From assembly GCF_007748035.1 (NCBI RefSeq), contig NZ_CP036278.1:6138001-6202000 (forward strand): a DNA stretch of 64,000 nt, in the 5' to 3' direction. Origin of the DNA: Aeoliella mucimassa (lineage in GTDB: Bacteria > Planctomycetota > Planctomycetia > Pirellulales > Lacipirellulaceae). The position numbers were made by a program, and so were the translations under genes. Shown here piece after piece: positions 15,079 to 64,000 of the stretch. Numbering within the stretch: the first letter of the stretch is position 1; the number at the start of each line of letters is the position of its first letter. Under the pieces are notes generated by a model, which saw only the letters and a list, made by a program, of their open reading frames with translations, had not been told where the DNA came from and made no database searches.

Positions 15079-15760
15079 AGTTTTCGCTGGGAATTGGCCA
15101 CCTGTGGTGTTCTAATGGACAGGTGATTGCTGGCTGTCGGCTATCAGCTTTCGGCTGTTGGCTCTTAGTGATAGGAGGTGAATGAGATGTGATGCTTGTT
15201 TGAATGGCAGACTGTTAGTGACGCGCAGGCGAATGTTCGGCTGCGTGGGCGTTTGCTGCTGCGCGGGTGTCAAAGCTGTAGGCTCTAAGCTGTAAGCTAG
15301 ATCTTTCAGTCGCTGGAAGCTCCTTCAAGATGACATTTCTACATCCAACTCCCAACGTCCAACTCCCAACTCAAAATAGTTTCCCACCCATGGGAATCTA
15401 TTTTGGGCACATTCACCGGAGGTGTTGATGCAACTCATTGCTAACAAACGACTTGCGATTGATTCCCACTGCGAAAATAGATTCCCACTCGATGCGTTAT
15501 TGGAAATGGGAATCTATTCGGACGCGAAAACCACTGGTTTTGCAGAGTGCCTGCCGATTCAATTTTCCCATAGGTGGGTAAATTGGGAATCTATTTGCCC
15601 AGCAGTGGGAATCTATTCGAGGGCGGTGGGAAACTATCCCGCCGGGGGTGGGAAGATGGGTCCCCTCCCGCTGCGAGGAGCTGGTGGAACTGGGCGGACT
15701 GCAGAGCAGCAGGATAGGAGAGATCCAATGCGATGCCGAGGCCCGACCAGTGCAGATTCG
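15079..15760 (+). repeat. Dispersed intergenic repeat, copy A
   Basis: The stretch 14809-15770 has no supported gene. It holds an 11-base C run at 14865-14875 and then copy A. The copy begins at a CCAG...CTGG hairpin with AATTGGCCACC, then GTTCTAATGGACAGG, low-complexity phrases (GGCTGTTGGCT; CCAACTCCCAAC), the block TCTTTCAGTCGCTGGAAGCT, and a motif field with TGGGAATCTATT at 15391, 15507, 15584 and 15606 and its reverse complement at 15476. It is closely similar to the inverted copy at 51410-52054. The open frame 15422-15841 through it is treated as a by-product of the repeat. Confidence 0.85.
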
Positions 15761-44134: not shown

Positions 44135-45763
44135 TTACTTGCGATACGCGTACTCGGTGGAATTGATGAGCGACCAAAGTAAGTCCTCGTAGGTCTCGGT
44201 GCGATCGCCGACCGATTGCTGATAGGCGGACACCTGCGCGAGTTCCTCGGTCGTCGGTTCGCGACAGAGCGTGCGGAGGAACAACTCGCTGGTCACCAGT
44301 TCGTCGTCCTCCTCGTCGCGTAACAGTTTGCCGAGCGAGGTCGGACGCAACCGCCGACCTGCCGAGACAGCCGCATTGATTTGCGGTGTATTCATCATCG
44401 CCAAGGCTTGTGGAATGCTGCTGGTCACGGTCTCGCGGGGCTCCGAGGGATCGAAGCCAAACGCTACGTCGAAAGCCAAACGCGGAGTTGACTGCACGCC
44501 GTAAGCCCGACCGTTTGCGGAGACCATCGAACGAATCGTCGCTTCGTCGAGCTCCAGCGTGGTCAGCAAACTGTTGAAAAGCTGGTCGCCGCGGAGCGGT
44601 TGCGCCACGTTGGCCGTGAATGGCACCGCATCGGGCAGGCGACGAGGGCGGGTTTCGCGCTGGTAGGCCTCGGTGCTTAGGATCACCCGCATCAGCCACT
44701 TGGGGTTGTACCCGCTGGCGGCAAACTCCTCGCTCAGGTACTCCATCGCCTTGCCACCACTTGGTGTGCGATCGGGTCCGATGTCGTCGACCGGCTCGTA
44801 AAATCCCTCGCCCACCAACTCGGCCCACATACGATTCACATACGCCTTGGCAAACCACTCGCTGTCGGTCATCCATTCGGCAATGCGCTCGCGACGCTCC
44901 GCATCGCGCGTTCCGAGCGGCACCTCGGCCCCGGTCAGGAAGAACTTCGGCTCCATGCGTGTTCCTTCGGCCGCGGGGTCGTCGAGGTCGGGCATGTAGT
45001 GCTCCGGGGTCCCGCGACGGTTCGCGTTGTCGCCACCCCGTCGATTGTTAGCTGGGCTATCGTTGCTCACTACCTCGAAGCTGCGCCGCGTCGTGGAGTT
45101 CACTGGGCGGACCGCGGTGCGGGGAAAGAACGCGGCCAGCTCGTGAAACTGCTCTCGCTTCCAGCGATCGTAAGGATGATCGTGACACTGAGCACACTGA
45201 ATCTGGATGCCGAGGAAGATGCGCGAGATCTCGGCCGTGGTCTCTTCGGTACGACCATCCTGAGCCATCATGATGGCCGTGGCCCCGTTGTCTTGCACGT
45301 CGCCAGAGCTAGTGATGAAACGGGTAGCCACTTCGTCCCAGCCGGTGCCCGCGTTCAGCTCATCGGTCAGCAGGGTCACCACCGCGTTGCTCGCAATCAC
45401 CGCTCGATCTTCAATGCGGCGATACATGATGACGTCGCGCCAGTAGCGAGCCCAGTTCTGCCCGTACTGCTCGCTCGCCAGGAGGTCGCGAATCACCCGG
45501 TCGCGTTTGCTGTCGGAAGGATCGAGCAGGAAAGCGGTGACATGCTCGGGCGAGGGGATATCGCCGACCAGGTCCAACCACACCCGCCGCAGGAACGTCG
45601 CGTCGTCGGTCTGGGGAGCCAGCTCGACCGAGTCGGTGAATAGCTCCTCGGCCAGCAGGCGATCGACCTCGCGGGCGACGCGCCCAGCGTTGCGCCCCTC
45701 GGCCACAGCGGCCGCCGCCATGCACGACACGACACCAGCTACGAGCAAAGCAAATCGGAACAT
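44135..45763 (-). CDS. DUF1549/DUF1553 protein with signal peptide
   Basis: A 542-residue product from the ATG at 45763 (MFRFALLVAGVVSCMAAAAVAEG), a signal peptide lacking in the other DUF1549 protein of the window. Motifs are DATFLRRVWLDLVGDIPSPEHV, NWARYWRDVIMYRR, IQCAQCHDHPYDRWKREQFHELAAFF (a CxxCH-like haem or metal site), RRERIAEWMTDSEWFAKAYVNRMWAELVGEGFYEPVDDIG and RTLCREPTTEELAQVSAYQQ. It pairs with the DUF1501 gene downstream. The CAQCHDHP motif suggests electron transfer or metal binding. No paired cytochrome domain is fused. Confidence 0.93.
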   Translation of the reverse strand: MFRFALLVAGVVSCMAAAAVAEGRNAGRVAREVDRLLAEELFTDSVELAPQTDDATFLRRVWLDLVGDIPSPEHVTAFLLDPSDSKRDRVIRDLLASEQYGQNWARYWRDVIMYRRIEDRAVIASNAVVTLLTDELNAGTGWDEVATRFITSSGDVQDNGATAIMMAQDGRTEETTAEISRIFLGIQIQCAQCHDHPYDRWKREQFHELAAFFPRTAVRPVNSTTRRSFEVVSNDSPANNRRGGDNANRRGTPEHYMPDLDDPAAEGTRMEPKFFLTGAEVPLGTRDAERRERIAEWMTDSEWFAKAYVNRMWAELVGEGFYEPVDDIGPDRTPSGGKAMEYLSEEFAASGYNPKWLMRVILSTEAYQRETRPRRLPDAVPFTANVAQPLRGDQLFNSLLTTLELDEATIRSMVSANGRAYGVQSTPRLAFDVAFGFDPSEPRETVTSSIPQALAMMNTPQINAAVSAGRRLRPTSLGKLLRDEEDDELVTSELFLRTLCREPTTEELAQVSAYQQSVGDRTETYEDLLWSLINSTEYAYRK

Positions 45764-45877
45764 GACAAGGTTCCTGAGTGAGTAGAAGACAAGAACATCC
45801 AAAACAGTGGTCAGGCTATCCAACCCCAGGCCGATGCCAAGGGTTCCGCGACCTGCGCATAACCCCTTAGGCGGGAA

Positions 45878-46086
45878 AATAGATTCCCACGTGGGAACAT
45901 TGCGATTTCCGCAAGTCGTGAATTGCCAAGGAATTAGGTAATTTCCCAATGTTCCCATTTCCCACATACGATCCGTTGGGAATCTATTCTCGCACCCCTT
46001 CGTTGGCCGTAAGTCATTACCACAAAAGCACTTGCATATGTCAGTGGACAGGGAACAGAGCATTATACTTTCCCACCGGTGGGAAA
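45878..46086. repeat. Partial repeat field with TTCCCA/TGGGAA palindromes
   Basis: The gap 45764-46336 holds no gene. AATAGATTCCCA at 45878-45889 is followed by TTCCCACGTGGGAA (45884-45897), a perfect palindrome. TGGGAATCTATT lies at 45977-45988, and TTTCCCACCGGTGGGAAA at 46069-46086 is an 18-base perfect palindrome. These share the motif of the larger repeats but not their low-complexity flanks. Confidence 0.7.
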
Positions 46087-46336
46087 CAAAAATCAGGGCT
46101 TAAAACAGCGGGCAAATTGAAAATGGGGGAAGGGGAAAGGATAAGCAGCGAGCAGGGACACCCCACACGAACTCCACCAACGCGCAGCACAAAACCACCG
46201 ACGCAGCGAACCACGACAGCACCTCCCTCACACTCAGTGAACAGGTGTATTGTATCGCAGCAAGTGGCCAATAGCGAGAGAAAAGCGCCAAGATGAGGAG
46301 CTTGCCTGCTCTACCTAACTTGCAGAGAATCTCCCC

Positions 46337-51409: not shown

Positions 51410-52054
51410 TCGGCGCTTGGCATCCAATCATGAACTTACCCATCCCATCCTGTTGCTCTCCCATCCGTCCAGGTCTGCATCTTCCCGCATCGGCGGGATA
51501 GATTCCCAACGCTCGGCAAATAGATTCCCAATTTACCCACCGATGGGAAAATTGAATCTTCGCCCGCTCTATAAAACCAGGGATTTTCGCGCTCGAATAG
51601 ATTCCCATTTCCCAAAACGCATCGAGTGGGAATCTATTTTCGCAGTGGGAATCTATCGCAAGTCGTTGGTATTTCATGGGTTACGGCCACTCCTCCTCTC
51701 AAATTGCTCAAAATAGATTCCCATGGGTGGGTAAGTATTCTGGTTGGGAGTTGGATGTTGGGAGTTGGGAGTTGGATGTAGAAATGTCATCTTGAAGGAG
51801 CTTCCAGCGACTGAAAGATCTAGCCTACCGCTTACAGCCTAAAGCCTACAGCTTTGCCACACGCGCAGCAGCGAACGCCCACACAAGCGGCATCGCTACA
51901 GCGCGCTTGCGTGGTAGATGGTTTCGAGCGATTTGATCTTCACTCGGTTACATCTTTCCATCCTCCAACTACGGACCACTGACGACAAACAACGGACAAC
52001 ACGTCACCTGTCCATTAGAACACCATCGATGGCCAATTTCCAGCGAAAACTGGA
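51410..52054 (-). repeat. Dispersed intergenic repeat, copy B (inverted)
   Basis: In the 1237-base gap 51063-52299, read on the minus strand, the order matches copy A: CTGG hairpin with AATTGGCCA at the 52054 end, GTTCTAATGGACAGGTGA, CCAACTCCCAAC phrases, AGCTCCTTCAAGATGACATT, then the motif field. AATAGATTCCCA on the plus strand occurs at 51519, 51596 and 51712, with TGGGAATCTATT at 51627. Long blocks of the motif field agree base for base with copy A. The minus-strand frame at 51156-51677 is considered non-coding. The remaining 245 bases to 52299 hold nothing recognised. Confidence 0.85.
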
Positions 52055-63604: not shown

Positions 63605-64000
63605 ATTTCGCTGGGAATTGGCCACCTATGGTGTTCTAATGGACAGGCAACTGAGGCTGTCGGCTTTCAGCTCTCGGCTGTTGGCTTTTTAGTGATTGGA
63701 GGTGATTGCGATGTGATGATTGTTTTGAACTCGAACGACTAGCGACGCGCAGGCGAATGGTAGCCTGCGTGGGCGTTCACTGCTGCGCGGGTGGCAAAGC
63801 GGTGGTGGGGCTGCGTCGCTGGAAGCTCCTGGTCCCATCCTACGAGTCGCTTGTTGGTGACACGCCCGAAATGGCTAGCTGAGATCTTTCAGTCGCTGGA
63901 AGCTCCCTCAAGATGACATTTCGCATTCAGAACTCCCAACTTCCAACCCCCAACTCCCAACCAAGAATAGTTTCCCACCCATGGGAATCTATTTTGGGCA
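63605..64000 (+). repeat. Dispersed intergenic repeat, copy C (cut by window end)
   Basis: The same sequence order as copy A: TTTCGCTGGGAATTGGCC, GTTCTAATGGACAGGC, GGCTGTTGGCT phrases, TCTTTCAGTCGCTGGAAGCT, AAGATGACATT, CAACTCCCAAC, TAGTTTCCCACCCATGGGAA, then TGGGAATCTATT. In the middle it carries an extra, duplicated CGCTGGAAGCTCC segment (63827 and 63894). The motif field continues beyond the window. Confidence 0.85.

Follow-up and report, generated by a model that had tools for sequence, protein, structure and literature searches.

High-copy noncoding repeats of bacterial chromosomes are usually thought to be small selfish palindromes. Multiple direct terminal repeats, spaced by about 20-22 bp at one end, are in turn a feature of IS21- and Tn7-type transposons. 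REP and BIME sequences are described as high-copy, intergenic and species-restricted mosaic repeats, for which protein binding has been reported and a part in organizing the chromosome suggested (PMC2817692, PMC3733652), and REPs serve as landing sites for insertion sequences (PMC1525189). SlmA sites and the matS sites of MatP constitute many chromosomal copies of one specific site and are thought to mark domains or bridge DNA; E. coli K-12 has 50 SlmA sites, most of them within coding regions (PMC3116907).

Here we analyze a family of dispersed repeats in the 6.61 Mb, one-contig genome of Aeoliella mucimassa, starting from its members in a 64-kb window (the whole stretch of DNA under analysis). 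The family is built around the 12-mer TGGGAATCTATT. Like REP and BIME sequences, it is a high-copy, mostly intergenic and lineage-restricted mosaic on which insertion sequences land. Unlike them, its members measure about 550 bp and contain a rigid 221-bp core of iterated sites, whereas REPs are palindromes of 20-40 bp; its repeated unit is non-palindromic and, judging the consensus by eye, is not a GTAG/CGTC-tagged palindrome; no Y1 gene was found flanked by inverted copies, as in REP/RAYT systems; and its members are evenly spaced along the chromosome. With SlmA and matS sites it shares a specific site that recurs many times around the chromosome, but where those are short single sites, each locus here is an array of about five sites, about 550 bp long and mostly intergenic. 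The direct repeats about 20-22 bp apart at one end recall IS21 and Tn7 ends, from which the family differs in that no IS21 transposase partner or target duplication was found and in that the element has motif sites in its middle part too. In contrast to the usual picture of bacterial repeats, the family is old-looking, rigid over 221 bp, intact in its motif, more evenly distributed than chance and present in one lineage of those searched.

The first-pass annotation of the window had reported three intergenic copies sharing one order of blocks. These copies are real and exceed chance expectation, with 16 matches to TGGGAATCTATT at no more than one mismatch in the window and 0.16 expected, but they are far from the whole family. 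The exact 12-mer occurs 586 times in the genome (reversed motif, 0) and a core pattern allowing up to three mismatches yields 125 matches (45 forward, 80 reverse; control, 0), a census at odds with an origin of just three copies by segmental duplication; at least 18 diverged members come on top of these close copies, and one of them is a fourth member inside the window (Table 1). The order of blocks is indeed the same in copies 1 and 2, copy 3 agrees as far as the window reaches, and all three lie between genes found by our own ORF caller (L158, L159, L160). The fourth, diverged member overlaps the start of a mechanically called ORF (44135-46063, a PSCyt2/PSD1, DUF1549/DUF1553 protein), so the true start of this gene may be further in. 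For detailed analysis we used 100 of the 125 close copies, each exact to the core pattern; some of the remaining 25 entered through a later set of 20 further stretches. The excess of reverse over forward copies among the 125 is significant (binomial P 0.002), and the 100-copy set leans equally in both chromosome halves (38 forward, 62 reverse), with no link between orientation and replication arm when the origin is assumed, from a presumed DnaA match, to lie near the first base of the contig.

Table 1. Members of the repeat family in the 64-kb window and their component parts (window coordinates unless marked as contig positions).
Feature	Position	Strand	Basis or details
Copy 1, whole	~15081-15638	+	direct reading
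Copy 1, 5′ block (TTTTCGCTGGGAATTGGCCAC..TGGTGTTCTAATGGACAGG), sharp left boundary	15081..15123	+	direct reading
Copy 1, variable spacer	15124..15374	+	modules GACGCGCAGGCGAA, TTCGCTGCTGCGCGG, GTCGCTGGAAGCTCC, TCAAGATGACAT, CCAACTC runs
Copy 1, rigid 221-bp core	15375..15595	+	five motif sites
Copy 1, core sites	15375-15386; 15391-15402; 15476-15487; 15507-15518; 15584-15595	-; +; -; +; +	first site with one mismatch
Copy 1, tail, extra units ~every 21 bp	15606..15638	+	15606-15617; TGGGAAACTATC at 15627-15638
Copy 2, whole	52049 down to ~51497	-	direct reading
Copy 2, 5′ block	52007..52049	-	
Copy 2, rigid core	51519..51739	-	core pattern at contig 6189596-6189635
Copy 2, extra tail site TGGGAATCTATC	51497..51508	-	
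Copy 3, whole	from 63605, past window end, to contig position 6202226	+	reading and genome search
Copy 3, 5′ block	63605..63647	+	
Copy 3, core start, cut by window end	63966..64000	+	continues to contig 6202226
Fourth, diverged member	45878..46089	-	nhmmer E 1.4e-10; exact sites 45878-45889 (-), 45977-45988 (+)

Read in its own direction, each element consists of a 43-bp 5′ block, a spacer of variable length, the 221-bp core and, at the end, a tail. Of the 100 copies, 94 have the 5′ block no more than 2 kb upstream of their core, and at up to three mismatches the block is found at 109 places in the genome. Two loci (L234 at ~0.626 Mb and L235 at ~1.42 Mb) have a 5′ block and no core, so the ends of the element need not stay together. 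The distance between block and core differs among copies, each spacer module being present in 48-78 of 99 copies and insertion sequences lying inside the spacer in 12 of 100; when the spacers of 78 copies without a nested element are compared, alignments cover a median of 137 of about 259 bp, with 83% identity, in 2908 of 3003 pairs. In the core, four of the sites are present at no more than one mismatch in 100, 100, 97 and 96 of the 100 copies, and the fifth in 62. What had been annotated as a terminal field of motifs resolves into this rigid core followed by up to four extra sites, at spacings of 20-22 bp in 62 of 64 cases (none in 45 copies, one in 37, two in 15, three in 2 and four in 1), giving a mean of 5.3 sites per element with the tail included. 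Of the long hairpins proposed for the same region, the central AATAGATTCCCA/TGGGAATCTATT pair can fold, while most copies have mismatches in the first pair. Between the two sites of that first pair lie four bases (core offsets -92 to -89) that are mainly CCCA or its reverse complement TGGG, an alternation that looks like the flipping loop of a palindrome.

The genes flanking the 100 copies, as called by a simple coding-potential ORF caller, are convergent in 30 cases, divergent in 23, tandem in 40 and undetermined in 7. A predicted gene covers part of the repeat in 18 of these copies, 15 of which correspond to nested insertion sequences, and an ORF overlaps the core or tail in three (L065, L078 and L103, the last also among the 15 with an insertion sequence); not all copies are therefore cleanly intergenic. 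In another of the 18 (L111) an ORF ends near the presumed left edge. Upstream of the 5′ block other repeats recur in 46 of the 100 copies, mostly in the same orientation (GCTAAACGATTTTTC, for instance, in 20 copies), and the intergenic sites are therefore mosaics of several repeat families.

Internal geometry and motif sites are conserved well beyond the sequence between them. Six core landmarks each occur at a single offset in 96-99 of 99 copies, and of 233 core columns 123 reach a constancy of 97% or more, with 69 below 90% (93 copies). Deviation from the consensus amounts to 1.9 and 2.4% in two sites and to 16.7% and 9.9% in two stretches between sites (99 copies); because the copies were picked by a core-internal pattern, conservation at its 40 positions partly reflects that choice of copies, and the sites and landmarks quoted here lie outside that pattern. 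The highest identity between any two of the 100 cores does not exceed 94%, and the median identity to the nearest neighbor is 90% (99 copies). The compared copies are hence not recent duplicates, and their sites are nonetheless intact. Variable columns are unlinked beyond some 10-20 bp (r2 0.01-0.03 from 8 bp up); pairwise identity at these columns is more structured than in shuffled data, though not strongly so (variance 0.0076 vs 0.0033), the longest common run has a median of 8 vs 6 in shuffled columns, and similarity among copies shows no link with chromosomal distance. Given the unlinked columns and the lack of near-identical pairs, a recent burst from a master copy is ruled out for the copies compared, which appear to be old, shuffled by recombination, or both.

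The 20 further stretches comprised seven with a nearly full core, one with a core split by an insertion, ten diverged members and two with the 5′ block alone. A diverged-core pattern matched 11 places (control, 0), seven of them new, and with the window member at 45.9-46.1 kb the diverged members number at least 18. They keep AATAGATTCCCA and TGGGAATCTATT, exactly or nearly so, with most other sequence changed; since they were found via the motif, the presence of at least one site follows from the way they were picked, which does not apply to further sites. Several of them (L257, L261, L227, L218 and others) carry, as seen by eye, an inverted repeat like ACTTACGTCGA..TCGACGTAAGT flanking the middle of the core, in a position where the main family has CTATCGC..GCGATAG, and this inverted repeat may be a second paired or dimeric site. 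Two diverged members (L264 at ~1.926 Mb and L266 at ~4.027 Mb) lie in surroundings that look coding and resemble each other well past the motif sites, as segmental duplicates would.

The copies are over-dispersed on the chromosome, a non-random distribution of the kind expected of nucleoid-organizing sites. For the 128 known members, an incomplete list made up of the 100 close copies plus 28 others, the coefficient of variation (CV) of the spacing is 0.71, vs 0.99 for random placement, and only 4 intervals are shorter than 12 kb, with 26.4 +/- 4.1 expected. Between 0 and 2.77 Mb, where the list is nearly complete, 60 members have a mean spacing of 46.5 kb and a CV of 0.60 vs 0.98; an earlier test with 59 members had given a CV of 0.58. 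None of 20,000 simulations, in which placement was uniform along the chromosome and not restricted to intergenic positions, was as even as the observed distribution, either for the 128-member set or for the 0-2.77 Mb stretch. The longest gap is unremarkable (P 0.31), and the shortest intervals measure 5.3 and 5.7 kb (two pairs). The 21 other members, namely 18 diverged and three with near-full or split cores, avoid the close copies weakly: two of them lie within 10 kb of a close copy and 6.3 would be expected (P 0.03), with P 0.13 for their median distance to the 100 close copies.

Among the three readings offered by the first-pass annotation (an RNA, a protein-binding array or a non-autonomous mobile element), the protein-binding array appears to fit best, considering the near-invariant sites, the rigid spacing and the retention of sites in diverged relatives, whereas an RNA finds no support and a mobile element is plausible as the means of spread. 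The explanation we favor, to which we attach roughly even confidence, is that the elements are noncoding arrays for a putative DNA-binding protein recognizing TGGGAATCTATT, and that they are old, lineage-restricted, kept by selection and act as evenly spaced chromosome marks. Each copy would then be a noncoding DNA platform for many molecules of that one protein. The four or five sites of the 221-bp core, at fixed distances and in both orientations, would assemble a rigid nucleoprotein complex, and the tail, with up to four further sites two helical turns apart, may tune the strength of the platform. After a likely earlier phase of spread by transposition, the roughly 125 close and at least 18 older copies, mostly intergenic, mutually avoiding and, in the stretch with a nearly complete list, about 47 kb apart on average, could act as the chromosome marks of a single lineage, whether as bridging, domain-setting or segregation sites. 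In this scheme the binding of a protein, selection on individual copies, the organizing role and the old transpositional spread are what we infer. The pattern of linkage is in keeping with it, as variable columns that covary only within 12 bp and are unlinked beyond about 10-20 bp would match short spacers between fixed sites.

A more specific version, in which some 140 evenly spaced arrays of about 550 bp, with about 600 12-mers in all and a dedicated putative DNA-binding protein, provide lineage-private marking of domains of about 50 kb on the 6.6-Mb chromosome, is tentative and in our estimate rather unlikely to hold. Even spacing together with intact motifs in old-looking copies favors a host function. 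Against the favored explanation it may be argued that even spacing also fits transposition immunity or the loss of close pairs, that elements kept fit for mobility could likewise show conserved sites, and that the absence of the family from three genus mates is odd for an essential chromosome organizer. The weak avoidance shown by the 21 other members, the two pairs at 5.3 and 5.7 kb, the unremarkable longest gap, the inverted repeat that differs in several diverged members and the ORFs over the core or tail of three copies weigh on the same side. If a protein does load on the arrays, they would offer a ready system in which to ask whether evenly placed sites set chromosome domains, and by what route one lineage comes to have such a system.

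The strongest competitor to protein-binding arrays maintained for the host, less probable in our view and still carrying substantial weight, is a MITE-like non-autonomous mobile element. Like the ends of IS21- or Tn7-type transposons, its right end would carry repeats that bind a transposase, here the iterated motifs, its movement would have been driven in trans by a transposase since lost or unrecognized, and its spacing would stem from target immunity, in which case the even distribution would be a genome-wide footprint of transposition immunity. Much of the anatomy suits this account: the copies are dispersed, mostly intergenic and in both orientations, with no clear preference in gene context; the 5′ end is sharp and 20-22 bp end units vary in number; there are subfamilies of different age; and the over-dispersion is what immunity predicts. 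It is countered by the rigid internal spacing of old-looking copies, by the lack of any near-identical pair among the 100 cores and by the outcome of several searches for the hallmarks of mobility. The search for target duplications proposed with the first-pass annotation found none for the repeat: 6-mers common to both flanks occur at the ends of 0 of 95 copies vs 1.4 expected, and no flank word of length 5-10 exceeds chance by 3 sd in nine window settings, although a 1035-bp insertion sequence nested in the repeats has 9-bp target duplications in six of seven cases, so that duplications are detectable in this genome. Terminal inverted repeats were likewise not found, the 5′ block and 3′ tail looking unrelated by eye, and no coding parent with the same ends exists among the 100 copies, the long ones carrying known types of insertion sequence. 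A search for the IS21 helper IstB gave one match of 46.9 bits (cut-off 24.1), located at the very start of the contig and taken here for DnaA, and another of 23.3 bits below the cut-off, both of them short; with no IstB helper beyond these two, an IS21-type parent finds no support. A Mu-type C-terminal domain was not found either, but the same search gave no hit in any control genome and thus shows little.

A structured RNA element, or a family of small-RNA genes, is improbable. Inverted repeats, a fixed length and a Shine-Dalgarno-like GGAGGTGTTGATG conserved in most copies speak in its favor, and so does the flanking inverted repeat that in several diverged members changes sequence and yet remains an inverted repeat; seen by eye, the difference between ACTTACGTCGA..TCGACGTAAGT and CTATCGC..GCGATAG looks like compensatory change, which would fit a fold and counts somewhat against dismissing RNA. 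The covariance test suggested with the first-pass annotation leaves RNA structure without support, because none of the covarying column pairs is more than 12 bp apart: across 98 copies and 102 variable columns (invariant ones being unable to covary), 71 column pairs exceeded the highest value of eight column shuffles, all of them at 12 bp or less. RNAalifold, run on 64 of the 100 copies, returned a covariation term of -0.73, with a double change in 2 of 33 pairs and no compensation at the first inverted pair. The left arm of that pair is mismatched in most copies, having T at the sixth base in 92 of 99 and C at the fifth in 24 of 99, neither of which pairs with the near-invariant right arm, and Rfam has no match within the 64-kb window. 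A small protein or leader peptide translated from the ATG after GGAGGTG, for which 98 of 99 copies have the start region GAGGTGTTGATG (up to three mismatches) at a single offset, has next to no probability, since protein coding is ruled out by stops at codon 2 in 27 of 99 copies and later in 15 of 99, by the lack of a period of three and by a dN/dS-like ratio of 0.94.

The comparison with related genomes revealed no array among those searched. None of 395 other genomes of the order, including three of the genus, contains more than four exact 12-mers, vs 586 in the genome analyzed here. A set of 58 relatives contains 20 occurrences of the 12-mer, spread over 16 genomes (reversed control, 1), and none of the 20 is surrounded by an array; near a few of them there is another site with no more than two mismatches, usually at a distance of some hundred bases or more, and one locus gives a weak profile match (E 0.001). 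Searching the core DNA in the same 58 relatives returned a sole match of 30 bases (E 0.009, in G040) that is chance-like. The genus mates are distant, with 64-70% identity in one 700-aa protein, and in 253 kb of one of them no segment has three or more other copies. A 21-base core pattern has one isolated match in GTDB genomes, where the genome under study may have been excluded, its exact form is absent from viral contigs, and plasmid and phage sources gave no match. Among the open-licence papers listed by our searches there was nothing on the element, and the 12-mer appears in three papers, none of them bacterial by title. A genome of the same family (G014) contains repeats of another kind: in 400 kb, where the core profile matches nothing, there are 53 repeat segments, mostly of 50-170 bp; judged by eye, many are palindromic, such as GTAGGGTGCACGCAGTGCACC, and some seem to be coding.

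Insertion sequences lie inside 14 of the 100 copies: six belong to the IS110 family, six are the 1035-bp element with a DDE transposase and two are of IS200 type. One more 1035-bp element, additional to these 14, sits at the truncated left edge of another copy (L108). Matches to Y1_Tnp number 13 in the genome, and eight of them have no motif site within about 1.5 kb on each side. The other five adjoin motif sites; four lie between the two halves of a single core, which share one orientation, and the fifth has two sites of the same orientation and no core match. As the Y1 genes are not flanked by inverted copies and four of them split a core, a RAYT parent is not supported. The IS200-type or Y1-bearing elements that split repeat copies are found at L126 (= L276), L131 (= L277), L275 and L282, and L126 and L131 agree in the position of both junctions within the repeat, just after the first inverted pair. 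IS110 elements have been linked to guide RNAs and to REPs. Five of the six IS110-family elements in the copies are identical and one (L103) is diverged; the identical element, of 1232 bp, a length that may include repeat sequence at the edges, occupies the same part of five copies (L063, L113, L135, L136 and L161, at ~16.7 kb, 3.39, 4.66, 4.69 and 6.28 Mb), a shared position that would fit RNA-guided targeting of the repeat.
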